A DNA stretch of 64,000 nt. Origin: Shewanella sp. (GTDB lineage Bacteria; Pseudomonadota; Gammaproteobacteria; Enterobacterales; Shewanellaceae). Location: positions 62,001-126,000 of the forward strand of contig NZ_JABSSM010000021.1 in NCBI RefSeq assembly GCF_013214165.1, written 5' to 3'. Numbering within the stretch: the first letter of the stretch is position 1; every line of letters starts with the position of its first letter. Both the position numbers and the translations under genes were made by a program. The notes below the pieces were generated by a model that was given only the letters and a program-made list of their open reading frames with translations, did no database searches and was not told the DNA's origin. Below are positions 38,882-47,453 of this stretch, one piece after another.

Positions 38882-38892
38882 GTGAATAATGC

Positions 38893-38921
38893 CAAAGGCA
38901 GAATAACACCTGCCTTTTGTT
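38893..38921 (+). terminator. Terminator of the exported hypothetical gene
   Basis: Stem AAAGGCAG / CTGCCTTT with an 8-base loop and a T-rich tail (TTTTGTT), 12 bases after the stop. Confidence 0.7.
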
Positions 38922-39279
38922 AAACACCGATAAATGTAGGACATAGGCATCACAAACGATAAACATGCTCGCCAGTCGCTGGCGTCGATAAACTAAGCTC
39001 TCGACGCTGTTACACAAGCCTTAACTCCACTTCTATTCATACGCAAGTTATCCGTACCGTTGCACTTGACTAGAATATATCTAAGGAGGATTGGGCTCAG
39101 AACTCGCTTCACAGTGATGTTAACGGAAAACTAGAGGGAGTCTTCGCTGGTTTTTTACCTCCACAGACATGGCTCGATTGCTCAGAGTGTGAACGAACGC
39201 AATATCTTCGGCTTATAAAGCTGACCATTTCGGTTATCATCCCAGCTAAGCCAGCAACCATTCAATACAGAGGACGTTC

Positions 39280-39837
39280 ATGAGTAAAATCGTCGTAATT
39301 TCAGGTCATCCTAATCTTAATTAGTCGATGGCAAATTCAAAAATCATCCATATACTCGGCTCATTAAATAAAACTCATGTACATTGACTCGATGAGTTAT
39401 ATCAGATTACAAGATTGATATTGCAACGGAGCAGGCCGCGCTGATAGACGCCAATCTGGTGATTTTCAATTCCCTCTCTACTGGTCGACTTATCCGGCCA
39501 TAATGAAAAATGGTTCGATGATGTATTCACCTATAACTTCGCCTTCGGTCCATAGGGAGATAAGTTAAAGAACAAGAAAGTGATACTGTCAATCACGGCT
39601 AGCGCAACGGCAGAGTCTTATAGCGAAGGAGATTTTAACTTTATGCCTCTGGACGACTATCTGGAATCGGCACTTCACCCACTCAAGCAGCCCAAGCAAA
39701 CATAATCGATAGCATAGTAAGCTTTAACATGAACTCAGACATCAATGAAGGCGGCAGTATCGTATACCGTCAACCGCCTTGTCGTCGAACTCGCAGATAG
39801 AGTTAAGGCGAACATATCACAAACGATTAATAGCTGA
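39280..39837 (+). pseudogene. Decayed NAD(P)H quinone oxidoreductase (Flavodoxin_2 family)
   Basis: Starts like an intact gene (ATGAGTAAAATCGTCG: MSKIVVISGHPNLN), then TAG. Frame-jumping translation recovers LDELY, DYKIDIATEQAALIDANLVI, FPLYWSTYPAIM, KWFDDVFTYNFAFGP and GDKLKNKKVILSITASATAE, the KefF/MdaB-type flavodoxin-fold order. There are at least three stops and two frameshifts and the protein cannot be made. The flanking 380 and 250 bases carry no gene that I recognise. Confidence 0.85.
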
Positions 39838-40086
39838 TCCTGTCAATTTTGGCAACACGAAAGTAGAAACAAGCAGTCTAAGCGTCGCGGGTAGATGGCC
39901 CACCACGATGGGCGTTAAGCACTCGCTAACTTAAAAATGCAGCGATTGATTAACGGATCAGGAACGGGTTATGACCCGGATGTGACCAGATAATAAAATC
40001 TGAAGTGACTGATTATATCTAAGCCACTTCAAAATGCTCGTTTCAGAGCTAGCGTAGGATAGCTGAACAAGGCAGAGTTTGAAAAA

Positions 40087-40875
40087 TTAGAGATCCTTTA
40101 TGTTGAGCTGCTGATAGGTCACGCCATTATTCAGGGTAACCACACAAGAACCGCCAATGTTTTTAAGCTGAGCACACGCCTGCGTGGCCTGCTTTTTCTT
40201 GCTGAACTGACCGACTTTTATTCTAAAGTAAGTTTTGCCCTTTACACTAGCCCGTTCATAGGTAGGCGTTACCCCTTCTAGCGCTGACGCATACTTTTTT
40301 TGTAACTTAAGCCAAAATGATTCAATCACCCATGGATTGGTAACCGAAGATAATTGCAGCGCATATTTACCACCTAGATGGCCGTTGGCAAGAAAGCCAT
40401 TCTTGGATGCCAAGCTTACCTCAATGGGTTGCTCGGGCGCCGAAGGGTATGCCGCTGCCGTTTGCACCTTAGGCTGCTGCGAGGCGGGCTCACTCACGGC
40501 GATGACATCTGGAGTAGGTTCTTGGGCCTGCTTAACATCAATCAACACAGGTTTTTCAACGGCCTGCATCATCTCGACTGCAGGCTCTAATTCAGGCTCT
40601 AATGCAGGAGCTAATTCAGGGTCTTCGACCATGGCACCAAGTTGAACGATCAACTCTTTCAAGTCGCTCTCGATCACCACCAAACGAGCCACGCTGGGCT
40701 GCATCAATTGCCATTCGGCCATGCCTTTCTCAAGGCTATCGACCCTAGTCACTATCTCTTGTTGCTGAGTATCTAGCCTTTGGGTGTCGTCGGCCTGCTT
40801 AGTTGAGCTGACACACCCCGTCAAAGTGATGAACAAGCTCAAAAGCAATATGAAATTTGTACTCGCAATATTCAT
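40087..40875 (-). CDS. SPOR-domain lipoprotein of the fimbrial cluster
   Basis: 262 residues from the ATG at 40875. The lipoprotein signal is MNIASTNFILLLSLFITLTGC, with the lipobox cysteine at residue 21. A coiled segment (VDSLEKGMAEWQLMQPSVARLVV) precedes a Glu/Pro-rich linker (about 85-170) and a C-terminal SPOR domain (about 180-260: GKYALQLSSVTNP...TYFRIKVGQFSKKKQATQAC). SPOR domains bind denuded glycan at septa. The coiled segment matches that of the exported SPOR protein at 46.5-47.3 kb, so the two are paralogues. Last gene of the cluster, 215 bases after the usher gene. Confidence 0.82.
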   Translation of the reverse strand: MNIASTNFILLLSLFITLTGCVSSTKQADDTQRLDTQQQEIVTRVDSLEKGMAEWQLMQPSVARLVVIESDLKELIVQLGAMVEDPELAPALEPELEPAVEMMQAVEKPVLIDVKQAQEPTPDVIAVSEPASQQPKVQTAAAYPSAPEQPIEVSLASKNGFLANGHLGGKYALQLSSVTNPWVIESFWLKLQKKYASALEGVTPTYERASVKGKTYFRIKVGQFSKKKQATQACAQLKNIGGSCVVTLNNGVTYQQLNIKDL

Positions 40876-41089
40876 GTTAAATAGAATCACCCAAAACTCA
40901 TCATGTTAAGCAAAGCTTCCGTTACCTGATACAACATCAGGACCAGAAACTAATATCCATTAAGCCTGTAAAAATAGTCCCTAGTAACAACATAGGGTTA
41001 AAGCACGCTACATCATAAATGAAATGGACAAGCTATTATAGTGATACGGCTGGCATTAATGCTCTGTCAGTGGAAATCGCCACTCACCC

Positions 41090-44000
41090 CTAGAGCTCAA
41101 ATTCGAAGGCCTCAACATTACAATAAAGTCCGGCAGCGGCTAGGCTTTGGCAACTATTTTGAGCTTGAACAGACTCTTTATAAAATGCCACATTTAGCAT
41201 ATATTTTTCGTTAGCTTCATTGAAAACATAAAAAGCCTCATATGTAAGTACGTTATCAGGGTTTCGGCGTACAATTCCCCAGTAGGTTTTAAGAATATCT
41301 AACGAGTGAAAATCACCAAGATTAACCACATAGCCTTTGGCAAACTGTATCTGATCTAGGGTAAAATCGGCGCCATTAATAATATCACCGCTCGCCTTAA
41401 AACTCAGCTCAAGCTCATCAGCCCCATGTAGCTTTTTACGACTGATATAGCTGGAATCGATGGACGCACGATAGTGTCCCGGCAAGAGATCGGTAAACAG
41501 ATAGTAACCATCAAATTCAGTTTCTGCCGTAGCAATAAGTTTATCATTGTCATCTACAAGATTGACTGTCACGTAGGCGGCAGGCTTCTCGGTACCCATA
41601 GCATTCTTAACATATACGGTCCCTTCCAGTTCACTGGCGGTTACTACCGGGAAATCCATCACCTCAATGGATCCTTTGCGCGGGGTAATAGAAATCCCTG
41701 GAATCGCCGGCAGTAAGAAGGGATCATCAAAGCTATCTCGATCGAGAACAATATCGGTAGTCAAGTTATTCTGCATACCTTGGAGCATGGCTACCCCATT
41801 TTCATTACTCAAGGCCTGCCGATGGCTCTGCAACCCTTTAACCTTAGCACCTTCTACAATTGGCTCACCCTCATCAAACACACCATTAGCATTTTCATCT
41901 TCGAATACCCTTACCATCATGGATCCCTGATTGGCAAGTGAGTGACGGCTAGTAAAGAATTGACTTGTGATAGGTTCATAGCCAAAGCTGAATCGATAAT
42001 TAACGGCTATTGACCAGTCACCATCATCGTCATAGTTAATATTACTATTAAGGCTGTATTTTTCTTCGTGCCAAGTAAGCCCAAGCTCGGTGTTGTACTT
42101 GTCCGTAATGGGGAAAAAGTCTAGGCTTAACTCTGATTGCAACTGTGATGTTATCGGGATGTAAGAATCCAAACTTAGTATAGTGAGCTCACTCTCAGGG
42201 CTTAATCGGTAACCGGCACTGAAACGGGTTGATACGCGTCCAAAGCTTCTTTGCAAGCGTAAGTTGCCTGTAATCCTTTCATTTTCATCTAATTGACTCA
42301 CACTCTGATACCAAGACAGCTTATTATTAACCAACATGCCATAAGAGTTAAACGTCACTTGCTGAGTTACCGAATCTCGACGTGTGCCAGTGTTCGACAG
42401 AAAGTGATTCCAATTAGTTTGGTAGCTGAGAGGCAGAGCTGAGTCAGCAAATAATCGTCCTGACAAATTTAAATCATATTGATTGGTTTCTGAATCCTGC
42501 AAAATATTATCGGGTAAATTTGTTTGTCGCCAGTTATAACGTAAACCTAAAGAATGATCGCCAATACGAGTTCGTGCCGAGAACAATCCCTGCTGAACAG
42601 CATCTGGTTCAATTTCATAACTGGCTTGTAATAGCAAATTATCAAACAGACTCATATTACTACCTAATGAATAACTCTGCTTATCATCCCCATCTTTAGC
42701 GAGCATACTGGCATGACCCAAGCTAAAAGAAAGCCAATCAGTGACCCCCTGTTGGTATAATCCGGATACCAACCAGCCTTGATGTCCTACTTTGCCGAGC
42801 CCTGAAATACCAAATAGGCTCTTCCCCACCTCAGTGACAGACACACCATAATTACTCTCTTTGGACGTTAAAGCATTGCTATTCACAAATACCTGTTTGC
42901 TCTTGGTCTCCACCTGCCCCTGGGGGCCGTAAAAAATCATCTCAAACTGGTTATCACCAAATAATAACTCGATGTCGTTAAATTCATAACGGCCATTTTT
43001 CAAACTGAGCTGACTCGCTATAAATAGTCCATTTCGGTATAACTCTATGTCCCATCCAGGCTGAATATCACCGTTTAGATTTATTTTGTCATGATCAACA
43101 ACACGGCCGATATCATAATTAGAAAAACGTCCTCCACGACTTAAGCCGCCGGTATTGCCAATGCCAGCGTTTACCGGCGTGATATCGCCTAATTGATATT
43201 GTGTTGCACGCAATGGCCCTAATAAATCTGCTTTAGTAGATTCTTTTGTCAATTTCAAGCGAAGATCGGATATAATATCCGCATCATTACCCCCCATATA
43301 GTATTCGGCATTTAGGTAAGCTAAATCCTGACTTCCCAGTACAGAATAACCTCCGACCAGGCCATTATTAGAGGTACTGCCATAGAGTTGAACATCAACC
43401 AAGGGATGGGAGTATGCCTGATAGGTAGACTCACGCCAGGGGAGTACGGCTATGTTGCTATACGTTGAGCGTGTAGAGCTTTTTCTATTTTTTCTTGCCC
43501 AGCGCCGCTGTACGGGTAAAGGTGTTTCCGGATGTAATTTTAAGGTAAGGTCAACAAAATCGAATTCCATGCCAATGCCAAACCAGTCTGAGAGTATATC
43601 GGCGTCTATATATAAGTCATCGCTTTCAGAACGTAAACTCTGGCTACTGATCACACTAGATTGACCATTGATTATGACCTGTGCAGGTGCAGTCTCAGAA
43701 CTCAGCTCTTCGGGCCAGGTAAGCAGGAAATGTCGATCCTCACTGATAAACCACCCCTCAGCTCTGCGTTGCTCAAGGTCTACCTCAATAGGAAAATCAA
43801 GTAACTCAAGTAGCCCCATAAGCCCCAGTTGAGCATCTTCAGCACTCTTAAAGGCAAAGACTTCAGATAGTGCAATCTTGTCCACAGATAAAGACAGTAA
43901 TAGTTCTTCACCAACGGGAATACGCACCACCGACTCAGAGGCAACAGCAACTTCCGATAGGATGATTTCATCAGTACGCTGATATTGCAAACCGATACGT

Positions 44001-44251
44001 TTTAGCAGTAACTGAACCTTAGGGTTGGTGAGTTTATTAGCAACTGAACTATCGACTGCGGCCTGCAGTGGCCCATGGGTTACTGTTGCCAAGAACAAAA
44101 TCCCAAAAGCCAACATTTTAAACATCAAAACGCTGGAAGCTGAAATAGCAATAAACGCTTTGGACCTAGCCCGGAAGGCATGGGTGACCAAGGTCTTGAC
44201 CCAAGGCTGGGTCAAGACATAAAACCGAAGAGGTAAAGCGCCGATTCGCAT
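41090..44251 (-). CDS. Divergent fimbrial usher with C-terminal SPOR-like domain
   Basis: 1053 residues. An N-terminal region (70-250) precedes a beta-barrel rich in alternating strands (about 270-760), which contains the usher-like stretch GDIQPGWDIELYRNGLFIASQ and FYGPQGQVETKSKQVFVN. Then come carboxypeptidase-like Ig domains (VFEDENANGVFDEGEPIVEGAKV and GYYLFTDLLPGHYRASID). The last 90 residues (FAKGYVVNLGDFHSLDILKTYW...LNVAFYKESVQAQNSCQSL) read as a SPOR fold. The signal peptide is MLAFGILFLATVTHGPLQAA, so translation may start at the ATG at 44125 or 44116; the extra 42 residues overlap an 11-bp hairpin. Follows the chaperone gene by 27 bases. Confidence 0.82.
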   Translation of the reverse strand: MRIGALPLRFYVLTQPWVKTLVTHAFRARSKAFIAISASSVLMFKMLAFGILFLATVTHGPLQAAVDSSVANKLTNPKVQLLLKRIGLQYQRTDEIILSEVAVASESVVRIPVGEELLLSLSVDKIALSEVFAFKSAEDAQLGLMGLLELLDFPIEVDLEQRRAEGWFISEDRHFLLTWPEELSSETAPAQVIINGQSSVISSQSLRSESDDLYIDADILSDWFGIGMEFDFVDLTLKLHPETPLPVQRRWARKNRKSSTRSTYSNIAVLPWRESTYQAYSHPLVDVQLYGSTSNNGLVGGYSVLGSQDLAYLNAEYYMGGNDADIISDLRLKLTKESTKADLLGPLRATQYQLGDITPVNAGIGNTGGLSRGGRFSNYDIGRVVDHDKINLNGDIQPGWDIELYRNGLFIASQLSLKNGRYEFNDIELLFGDNQFEMIFYGPQGQVETKSKQVFVNSNALTSKESNYGVSVTEVGKSLFGISGLGKVGHQGWLVSGLYQQGVTDWLSFSLGHASMLAKDGDDKQSYSLGSNMSLFDNLLLQASYEIEPDAVQQGLFSARTRIGDHSLGLRYNWRQTNLPDNILQDSETNQYDLNLSGRLFADSALPLSYQTNWNHFLSNTGTRRDSVTQQVTFNSYGMLVNNKLSWYQSVSQLDENERITGNLRLQRSFGRVSTRFSAGYRLSPESELTILSLDSYIPITSQLQSELSLDFFPITDKYNTELGLTWHEEKYSLNSNINYDDDGDWSIAVNYRFSFGYEPITSQFFTSRHSLANQGSMMVRVFEDENANGVFDEGEPIVEGAKVKGLQSHRQALSNENGVAMLQGMQNNLTTDIVLDRDSFDDPFLLPAIPGISITPRKGSIEVMDFPVVTASELEGTVYVKNAMGTEKPAAYVTVNLVDDNDKLIATAETEFDGYYLFTDLLPGHYRASIDSSYISRKKLHGADELELSFKASGDIINGADFTLDQIQFAKGYVVNLGDFHSLDILKTYWGIVRRNPDNVLTYEAFYVFNEANEKYMLNVAFYKESVQAQNSCQSLAAAGLYCNVEAFEFEL
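44193..44218. repeat. 11-bp perfect hairpin near the usher 5' end
   Basis: GTCTTGACCCA-AGGC-TGGGTCAAGAC folds into a strong stem. It lies inside the uncertain N-terminal extension of the usher ORF, about 70 bases before the alternative ATG. It could limit usher expression relative to the chaperone, or be part of a small repeated element. No T tract on either side. Confidence 0.6.
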
Positions 44252-44278: not shown

Positions 44279-45121
44279 TTATGGCACTGTCTTTATAGAA
44301 TCCAGAGTCACCAGTATCGATTTTTCAGCCAGCAGCACACCATTAAACTCTTTTACGCCCTCAAAGGCCAAGCGTAAGTTCCCTCTCGCTGGAGTATAAT
44401 CAGGCCAAGTTAACTGTATTTTATGCTGTGTAAGCTCAGGGTAAACTGTATAGCCGTGAACTCTTGCAACGATTTGTTCAGGAGCATCTTGAGACGGCTG
44501 CCAGTATGCAATAATATTACCGGTCACGGAATTACGGCCGCTATGGTTAAGCAGCGCCGTAATGGTTGCACGGGGGAATGTTTTCTCTTTTGCCAGCGTT
44601 ACACTAGTTAAAGCCACGCTCGCATCAATTTCGCCTTGGCGCACTATAATGGGGAGCGAGTAACTCATGACGACATTGAGTTTGATTCTGATTCCATTGA
44701 CATTACTAGACTCTGGTGATTTGGGCGGTAATGCTTTTAGTAATAAATGGGAGCGATACTCGCCATCTGCTAAGCCCTTTGGACGACGCACCGCAAGTCT
44801 AATGGTTTGGCGCTCATCGGGTTTGAGAGTCACCTGCTTAGGGCTAAAACGAATCATGCCGCTGGCCGTCGGAAAAGTCTTAGCTTCTTCCTCGGTTAGG
44901 TTATGATAACTACCATTTTCTAGTACTGATTTTTGCTGCCAGCTCAATCGATAAGTACGGGTTTCTTGGCCGGTATTAATTAAGACTAACGACGTGGAAC
45001 GCTCGCGGTCGTTAAGAGTAACCTGTGTTGGGGAAATAAGCAGGCTCGCCTGCAAGTAGCCCGAATGGCAACATATCAATATTAGCGAACACTTTATTAC
45101 TCGAAATAACAGACTATTCAT
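44279..45121 (-). CDS. Periplasmic fimbrial chaperone (PapD-like)
   Basis: 280 residues with signal peptide (cleavage near LQASLLISPT). First Ig domain: SPTQVTLNDRERSTSLVLINTG, then IRFSPKQVTLKPDERQTIRLAVRR, the chaperone G1 strand pattern in which alternating hydrophobic residues complete pilin subunits. A second Ig-like domain follows (about 155-275). Between a DUF4402 pilin gene and the usher gene. The sequence is far from FimC/PapD and closer to chaperones of unusual chaperone-usher systems. Confidence 0.88.
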   Translation of the reverse strand: MNSLLFRVIKCSLILICCHSGYLQASLLISPTQVTLNDRERSTSLVLINTGQETRTYRLSWQQKSVLENGSYHNLTEEEAKTFPTASGMIRFSPKQVTLKPDERQTIRLAVRRPKGLADGEYRSHLLLKALPPKSPESSNVNGIRIKLNVVMSYSLPIIVRQGEIDASVALTSVTLAKEKTFPRATITALLNHSGRNSVTGNIIAYWQPSQDAPEQIVARVHGYTVYPELTQHKIQLTWPDYTPARGNLRLAFEGVKEFNGVLLAEKSILVTLDSIKTVP

Positions 45122-45252: not shown

Positions 45253-45729
45253 TTAATAATCGATGGTCATTAGCAAACGTGCCTGATATTCAGTATCAAT
45301 ATAATGGCCACGGGGATCTCCCGAGGACTGCAATGTGCCACCAATAAACACACTTGCCATACCATTACTATCGGTAACAACCGACGTGTCGGTTTTGACA
45401 CTGACCAAAGTGAACTGCTGTGTACCGAGCCCCGATGCAACCTGAGTCTGGGCCTGCATAACAGCAGCACCAATGGATAACATCTTATAGCTTGGATACT
45501 GGCTTAATGTGAACTCAGCGGCATGCCCTAGTGTTAACACCCGAAAATGTCGGCTAAAATCGATTTTGCCACTTGGTGTAACACTGATAGTGCCCACTGA
45601 AGAATTATCTATTATCACTATGGTACCGAAGTCAAGAGCCTGTTCGAGCTCCACGGCTGCTTGAGCCGAAGATACAAATAAACAGATTCCAAACAATAAC
45701 TTTATATTAGTGATTCGTATAAAATGCAT
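45253..45729 (-). CDS. DUF4402-type pilin-like subunit (short)
   Basis: 158 residues with signal peptide (FGICLFVSSAQA). The mature part starts AVELEQALDFGTIVI, the LDFGTI pattern typical of DUF4402 subunits, and ends in YQARLLMTIDY. The same layout occurs in the larger neighbour at 45.8-46.4 kb, so both are probably fibre components; this shorter one may be tip, adaptor or minor subunit. Beta-sandwich with no cysteines visible in the mature part. Lies 131 bases upstream of the chaperone gene. Confidence 0.82.
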   Translation of the reverse strand: MHFIRITNIKLLFGICLFVSSAQAAVELEQALDFGTIVIIDNSSVGTISVTPSGKIDFSRHFRVLTLGHAAEFTLSQYPSYKMLSIGAAVMQAQTQVASGLGTQQFTLVSVKTDTSVVTDSNGMASVFIGGTLQSSGDPRGHYIDTEYQARLLMTIDY

Positions 45730-45800: not shown

Positions 45801-46421
45801 TTAGTACGATACGACGACATCAAAAGTACCAGTATAATCACCATCAACATAAGCAGTAATAGCCCCCTCAGTACCACGTTTGTCGGTTTTCAAGGTTGCA
45901 CCAACCGAAAAGGTAACATTACCTTCTGAATCAGCGGCTAGATTCTTAGCTGCATAGGCTTTTCCTTTGTTTGCACCAGATGTGATATAAGCCTCAAAAC
46001 CACTTAAAAGAAAATTAGATGTTTCACTTGGCGCTGAAGCAGCCTTAAGTGTGACGGCATCATCAGCTGGAAGCGTAAGCTCCAGTTTTGAGAATGGTGC
46101 GACTTTAGCTATGGTATAAGTCGCTGCAGCACCATCAACAATAACCTGTGCCGAAGCCTTTACTTTACTGTCAGCTGAAGGGCTATCGCCATTCGCATAG
46201 ATTGTAACCGTAGCAACTTCAGCAGTAGCAGTAGCAGTGCCGATATCTGAAGTGACACGAATAGTACCGAAGTCAATTCCAGTTACTTGCGCCAGATCAA
46301 AAGCATTTTGGACTTTTACAGTCGCCGTAGAGGGCGCAGTTTCTTCAGCTGTAGCTTGAGTTGAACCCGCCGCTAACAAAGCAATGGCAATAACTTTAGA
46401 TAATGTTTTTACGTTAGTCAT
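45801..46421 (-). CDS. DUF4402-type pilin-like subunit (long, probable major)
   Basis: 206 residues. Signal peptide VIAIALLAAGSTQATA; the mature protein has the subunit motif FDLAQVTGIDFGTIRVT, an alanine/threonine-rich core, the block FSVGATLKTDKRGTEG and a C-terminal YTGTFDVVVSY. The terminal aromatic and alternating hydrophobics fit a subunit captured by a chaperone. First pilin gene of the cluster, hence probably the major subunit. No cysteines in the mature part. Confidence 0.84.
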   Translation of the reverse strand: MTNVKTLSKVIAIALLAAGSTQATAEETAPSTATVKVQNAFDLAQVTGIDFGTIRVTSDIGTATATAEVATVTIYANGDSPSADSKVKASAQVIVDGAAATYTIAKVAPFSKLELTLPADDAVTLKAASAPSETSNFLLSGFEAYITSGANKGKAYAAKNLAADSEGNVTFSVGATLKTDKRGTEGAITAYVDGDYTGTFDVVVSY

Positions 46422-46544: not shown

Positions 46545-47303
46545 TTAGTAATATTTTATCATTGACTCTCCATTATATTTAACTGCTCGACAATATTGAT
46601 TAGATTTTTTCAGACCAGCACAGACTTCTTGAGCATGTTTTTTTGACTTAAAGACTCCGGCTAACAGCCTGCGATATCGAGTTTCACCCTTTATAATATC
46701 TGTTGAATATGGCAATAGGTCTTTCAATAGTCCCGGATATCTAGCTTGATAACTCAACCAACTAGACTGTACATTTTTCAGCCTAACAAATGATGCTAAA
46801 TGAATCGAAAATTGTTCGCCCTGCTCTACATTTGTCATTCGTGAGTCAATAAATGATTTAACATTAGTAACAACTAAATTATTTTCTGCTGCTTCATTTT
46901 GTGAAACTGACTTTTTTACAGATAGTTTAGATTGGCCATTAACTGTTTCTTTATTGACCACGAATATATCTTTTTCATTATTCAACTGTTCGGCTGTCGG
47001 GTTAGCCTTGAGCTTAGACATCTTGCTTAACTCAGTGATCAAAAACTCTAAATCAGCCTCACTACTCACTAACCGTTTAATGGCAGGGCGCAACTCTTTC
47101 CACTCTTCCCACTCTTTCAAGTGTTGCTCAAACTTCAAAGAAAGCGCTTCAAACCTTTGATTATCATATCTTTGAAGCGATACATCATCAGCAAAACAGT
47201 TGGAAAAACAGAAGCTGGCCAGCATAAACGCTGATAAACGCAAGCAGTGAAGATCAAACTGCTTAAATAATATTCGCTTAATGTTCTGGCTCATGTTAGC
47301 CAT
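46545..47303 (-). CDS. Exported SPOR-domain protein of the fimbrial cluster
   Basis: 252 residues from the ATG at 47303 (the track's TTG at 47342 is less likely). N-terminal hydrophobic signal (LSAFMLASFCFSNCFADDV), a coiled segment (FEQHLKEWEEWKELRPAIKRLV) and a C-terminal SPOR-type domain (about 165-250: GEQFSIHLASFVRLKNVQSSW...YRRLLAGVFKSKKHAQEVC). The coiled segment and SPOR domain match the lipoprotein at the other end of the cluster. The residue preceding cleavage is in FSNCFA, so lipidation is possible but not canonical. First gene of the cluster; its 5' region carries the CRP site. Confidence 0.8.
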   Translation of the reverse strand: MANMSQNIKRILFKQFDLHCLRLSAFMLASFCFSNCFADDVSLQRYDNQRFEALSLKFEQHLKEWEEWKELRPAIKRLVSSEADLEFLITELSKMSKLKANPTAEQLNNEKDIFVVNKETVNGQSKLSVKKSVSQNEAAENNLVVTNVKSFIDSRMTNVEQGEQFSIHLASFVRLKNVQSSWLSYQARYPGLLKDLLPYSTDIIKGETRYRRLLAGVFKSKKHAQEVCAGLKKSNQYCRAVKYNGESMIKYY

Positions 47304-47453
47304 CTCTGCGCCCTCTAAAATCAACAAATAAAAATAGTTCAATATTCAAACAGAAAAGCCACCATTAAAACTTAACCTTCTCAAAACAAGCTTCACCACT
47401 CATCAAGATAATGCCAAAATGATGCCAACTTATTTATATAACCACGTAACACA

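Follow-up and report, generated by a model that had tools for sequence, protein, structure and literature searches.

A divergent SPOR domain forms the last ~85 residues of a 1053-residue open reading frame, predicted to be an usher, in the window analysed here, a stretch of 64,000 nucleotides from a Shewanella sp. genome. The gene lies within an operon which codes for two further SPOR-domain proteins, flanking the usher; these had escaped the earlier note on this DNA, where the fusion was proposed. Rather than a machine of a new kind, the operon is a variant of the chaperone-usher pathway to which SPOR modules belong. All its genes are on the minus strand and are listed here in operon order, starting from the head:

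46545..47342, minus strand: SPOR protein heading the operon, secreted or a lipoprotein (Pfam SPOR; orthologue profile)
45801..46421, minus strand: DUF4402 pilin-like subunit, 206 aa (DUF4402 E 1.6e-5)
45253..45729, minus strand: DUF4402 pilin-like subunit, 158 aa (DUF4402 E 1.1e-8)
44279..45121, minus strand: PapD-like periplasmic chaperone, 280 aa (PapD_N E 1.6e-6)
41090..44251, minus strand: whole usher ORF, 1053 aa (translation)
40087..40890, minus strand: SPOR lipoprotein, with a C-terminal SPOR domain keeping Gln and Arg/Lys (Pfam SPOR 8e-10)

The heading protein scores 18.9 bits against Pfam SPOR by itself and 21.2 bits together with its frame neighbours, while the lipoprotein features an LTGC lipobox and a coiled-coil-like N terminus. 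The whole 4.8-Mb genome contains six places matched by Pfam SPOR, two of them within this operon. The operon goes unrecognised in public annotation: the NCBI labels are "carboxypeptidase regulatory-like domain-containing protein" for the usher and "hypothetical protein" for the chaperone, and such labels keep it hidden in the databases. No Rfam RNA was found within the operon, and scans for promoters and terminators stayed near the shuffle level. Past its end, about 1.2 kb (window 38882-40086) contain no ORF over 52 aa.

The usher assignment comes from structural models. The domains located in the ORF, whose start may be M43, preceding a signal-peptide-like stretch, are the following:

41975..43402, minus strand: 24-strand barrel, residues 284-759 (DSSP strand count; FimD/PapC best matches)
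42884-43087, minus strand: plug domain after strand 6, residues 389-456 (DSSP of the model)
41687..41926, minus strand: CTD1, residues 776-855 (DSSP; the alignment with FimD by VIA extends to residue 964)
41351..41668, minus strand: CTD2, an SdrD_B-like sandwich, residues 862-967 (Pfam SdrD_B E 1.6e-13; DSSP)
41093..41344, minus strand: SPOR-type domain, residues ~970-1053 (AlphaFold/DSSP; Foldseek/VIA; hhalign; Pfam SPOR 17 bits)

The AlphaFold model of the full protein (66 sequences) has a pLDDT of 84.5. Its 18 best Foldseek matches are all FimD or PapC, with E down to 6e-27, and VIA aligns it to FimD across residues 272-964 with a Z of 21.2. By DSSP, six strands are followed by the plug, placed as in ushers, and then by eighteen more. 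As for a periplasmic, chaperone-binding domain at the N terminus, a folded region is modelled there (~110-255), and structural alignments begin at ~265. At the sequence level the Pfam Usher model (PF00577) does not match the window ORF, for which Pfam sees only the SdrD_B-like C-terminal domains; among relatives its matches are weak, the best reaching 17.4 bits against a cut-off of 27.1 (E 0.0021 in L057, 0.015 in L142). Phmmer against sequences of solved structures returned SdrD only, and the usher profile against PDB sequences returned SdrD and antibody chance matches only. The plug weakly matches the new NCBIfam model "CPR_pilus_PamR" (E 0.0015 in the window, 1e-4 in L069); nothing on this system was found under PamR or CPR pilus in the open-licence literature. 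Since an even number of strands leaves the C terminus on the same side as the N terminus, the SPOR tail is predicted to face the periplasm, in line with the orientation proposed earlier.

The residues pointed out in the earlier note do end this ORF, and the view that they form a SPOR-like domain, rather than an ordinary usher CTD, holds: two CTDs precede the domain, and Pfam, hhalign, AlphaFold and VIA/Foldseek agree on its nature, the SPOR itself covering about residues 970-1052. In the AlphaFold model of the tail (pLDDT 82.8), DSSP assigns beta1 to 970-981, alpha1 to 984-995, beta2 to 1007-1011, beta3 to 1016-1024, alpha2 to 1027-1039 and beta4 to 1045-1052. This is the beta-alpha-beta-beta-alpha-beta order of SPOR domains. 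One detail of the earlier description differs: the last strand is not flanked by cysteines. Two such residues lie nearby, spaced by 10 residues, C1034 within helix 2 and C1044 just before the last strand:

41150..41152, minus strand: Cys1034, invariant among 66 aligned ushers
41120-41122, minus strand: Cys1044, invariant among 66 aligned ushers

The upstream and the downstream SPOR protein family of the operon both show the same C-x9-C arrangement without exception, and the two cysteines of the usher tail likely form a disulfide. The tail is under purifying selection, omega ranging from 0.04 to 0.26 across 14 close pairs.

Homology to SPOR was evaluated against the possibility that the tail is an ordinary ferredoxin-like (RNP-fold) domain, unrelated to SPOR. 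Such a reading may appeal to the score of the isolated window tail against Pfam SPOR (PF05036), 17.0 bits (E 0.0077), which is under the curated cut-off of 21 bits, and to the PII-like and S6 folds ranking close behind in Foldseek. SPOR is, however, the sole family matched by the tail. It is matched by the tails of 15 out of 60 relatives (best 6e-9), any other Pfam family by at most one of the 60, and the low score of the window tail reflects a detection limit, not a defining feature of SPOR membership. The comparison with known SPOR structures, suggested in the earlier note, placed RlpA, DamX, DedD and CwlC above unrelated folds: all four were matched by Foldseek with the tail model, and the top of the VIA ranking is held by six SPOR-type or SPOR-like structures (BPSS2145 residues 81-166, CwlC, two of RlpA, DedD and DamX; Z 10.6-6.2), set apart from the next row, at 4.7. 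Profile comparisons by hhalign point the same way, with E 1.9e-13 to the downstream lipoprotein family and 1.7e-13 to the upstream one; the best of ~106 non-usher ORFs recruited from these loci by the tail HMM, with no iteration, are SPOR genes. A search of PDB sequences with the tail profile gave no meaningful match. A non-SPOR, ferredoxin-like tail is disfavoured, and regarded as extremely improbable.

The association is conserved. A scan of named genomes yielded 80 loci, from Shewanella, Pseudoalteromonas, Paraglaciecola, Psychromonas, Colwellia, Bowmanella, Glaciecola, Marinomonas, Vibrio and Desulfobacterales. In their most frequent layout a SPOR gene leads, followed by two pilins, the chaperone, the usher/SPOR and another SPOR gene. 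As counted with domain-only SPOR HMMs, 75 of the 80 loci have one or more separate SPOR genes; iterated full-length HMMs also caught FlgO-like lipoproteins (L073, L074, L076, L077, L109, judged by eye). The five loci lacking it are two short contigs (L118, L144) and three Desulfobacterales ushers. All the 46 downstream orthologous domains match Pfam SPOR. In more distant ushers, CTD2 is followed by two or three SPORs in tandem, above the Pfam cut-off (E 3.6e-17 in L058, 2.5e-15 in L142, 5.5e-11 in L143).

Different arrangements are also encountered. Six loci (L127, L128, L137, L138, L140, L146) feature a rearranged operon, opening with the usher-SPOR and a SPOR gene, followed by pilin, chaperone and pilin. 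Near some distant SPOR-tailed ushers, FlgO-domain lipoproteins replace the SPOR ones (L154 12381-13732; L155 3936-5408 and 13408-14034; L156 11534-12292), and a FlgT_M protein is found near another (L153 5161-6186).

The genome under study contains a second pilin/PapD-chaperone/usher operon without SPOR, beside ruvABC (contig C102, L025, 4078-9210); the SPOR-less paralogous operon is carried by other genomes of the genus (L019-L024), in most of which it adjoins ruvABC. Its ushers end a few residues past CTD2, and no SPOR gene was found near it, either in the same genome or within the genus; the same is true of other no-tail ushers with flanks available (L060, L037, L041). On an unrooted tree of barrel and CTDs the state of the tail changes at least four times, whether by gain or by loss.

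The counterparts of RlpA Gln270 and Phe274 were located in the tail by VIA alignment (offset model 25 = RlpA 266). In RlpA, side-chain contacts to denuded glycan are made by Gln270 and Arg302/309/311, and Phe274 bends the glycan, most other contacts being main-chain (PMC6895207). In the usher tail the phenylalanine is conserved as F981, while R309 and R311 correspond to M1018 and N1020, and Gln270 to an asparagine:

41321..41323, minus strand: Asn977, counterpart of RlpA Gln270 (VIA alignment)

Gln or His occupies the Gln270 position in 45/46 downstream and 38/42 upstream SPORs, against only 6/60 usher tails; Gln/His together with a basic residue is found in 45/46, 31/42 and 3/60, respectively. 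The placement of the domain on the wall, made in the earlier note, finds partial support: the SPOR fold and the periplasmic orientation hold, but a wall seat of its own is weakened by N977, by the Met/Asn in place of Arg309/311 and by the rarity of Gln/His plus a basic residue in the usher tails. The position corresponding to RlpA 274, in turn, is Phe or Tyr in 59 of the 60 tails. Gln or His is kept in the SPORs of seven ushers (L142, L143, L057, L058, L038, L042, L044) having no SPOR partner genes in their flanks, which were checked, whereas only 4 out of 57 ushers with SPOR partners keep it. The sequences thus suggest that Gln/His retention tracks the absence of partner genes; as the seven ushers sit in three clades, they are not independent counts, and the pattern is suggestive. 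A charge-driven docking of the tail is not borne out across relatives: the charge of the window tail, -4 against +9 and +11 for its partners, would suit it, but the mean of relatives' tails is +2.3.

The following scheme may account for these observations. The outer-membrane usher of a divergent chaperone-usher operon would have gained a SPOR-type domain after CTD2. Its barrel would export DUF4402 subunits, delivered by the PapD-like chaperone, and, judging from gene content, the operon would make a pilus. The tail would hang in the periplasm beside the two co-encoded SPOR proteins, one of them an outer-membrane lipoprotein according to its lipobox; these, keeping the glycan-contacting side chains, would grip peptidoglycan. 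With two more SPOR proteins present in the usher-SPOR operon, the pilus machine may well be tethered to the wall: the SPOR set would fasten the assembly platform to peptidoglycan, in the way other outer-membrane machines are held by AMIN or LysM domains, either against pulling force or where bare glycan is rich. Fibre export, binding of the lipoproteins to peptidoglycan and wall tethering are all presumed. The usher SPOR, given the loss of its Gln/Arg contacts, is most likely a docking module or a weak, backbone-mediated glycan binder. The simplest reading of the conserved residues is a division of labour, in which wall contact would have passed to the separate SPOR proteins, leaving docking or weak binding to the usher SPOR. 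That it docks to the SPOR lipoproteins is a guess. As a whole, a usher-SPOR operon with a wall-held platform is judged, with moderate confidence, the best explanation, and tethering of the platform to the wall by at least some member of the SPOR set seems somewhat more likely than not.

Two other roles may be envisaged for the tail. It could bind denuded peptidoglycan directly, mostly through its main chain, and position pili where amidase action exposes bare glycan, namely at the septum or new poles. The prevalence of main-chain contacts in RlpA, the aromatic residue kept at the glycan-curving position and the Gln/His of partner-less relatives all fit this idea, against which stand the scarcity of Gln/His in the tails as a group and of their basic partners; it is considered possible, with the odds somewhat against it, and the same is true of the narrower claim of glycan binding by the usher tail as such. 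Alternatively, the domain could be a structural cap or a dimerisation module with no link to the wall, as its missing ligand side chains and the helix-1 motif SLxxLKxYW, conserved in usher tails, might indicate. This seems unlikely, in view of the strong linkage to separate SPOR lipoproteins which do keep the ligand side chains, and of the tandem SPORs of distant relatives. Returning to the wall-held platform, its fullest version is a class of pili whose platform would be anchored, and perhaps positioned, at denuded septal peptidoglycan via three SPOR proteins, glycan binding having been handed over from the usher SPOR to the lipoproteins, with SPOR acting beyond division and morphogenesis; this version is put forward tentatively, at slightly less than even chances.

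According to PMC6895207, the functions of known SPOR proteins all lie in division or morphogenesis. If the proposed scheme is true, SPOR extends beyond division proteins, and the operon provides a natural case of a SPOR without ligand side chains beside partners retaining them. No report of a usher-SPOR fusion, and no mention of DUF4402, was found in the open-licence literature covered; both absences are weak.

Classical ushers are not known to carry wall-binding domains. A conserved operon, present in several families, where SPOR travels with the usher makes it possible to test by deletion how chaperone-usher pili withstand pulling force and whether usher and wall are in contact.

When compared to known systems, the window usher shares with FimD and PapC the 24-strand barrel, the plug after strand 6, the two C-terminal sandwich domains and an operon including a PapD-like chaperone and subunits. 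It differs from them in lacking a Pfam Usher match, in its SdrD_B-like CTDs, in the extra SPOR and in the DUF4402 subunits. With the ruvABC-adjacent operon of the genus it shares a homologous usher core, chaperone and subunits; unlike the window operon, that one has neither SPOR tail nor SPOR genes. The tail resembles the SPORs of RlpA, DamX, DedD, FtsN and CwlC in fold, length and the Phe ending strand 1; it is distinguished from them by its location on an usher, by the loss of the glycan-contacting Gln and Arg and by the C-x9-C pair. Finally, the AMIN domains of PilQ and the LysM of TsaP are peptidoglycan-binding modules of wall-attached outer-membrane machines. What the usher-SPOR operon would have in common with them is the principle of equipping an export pore of the outer membrane with a module that binds peptidoglycan; both fold and pore are different, and the likeness is one of role only.
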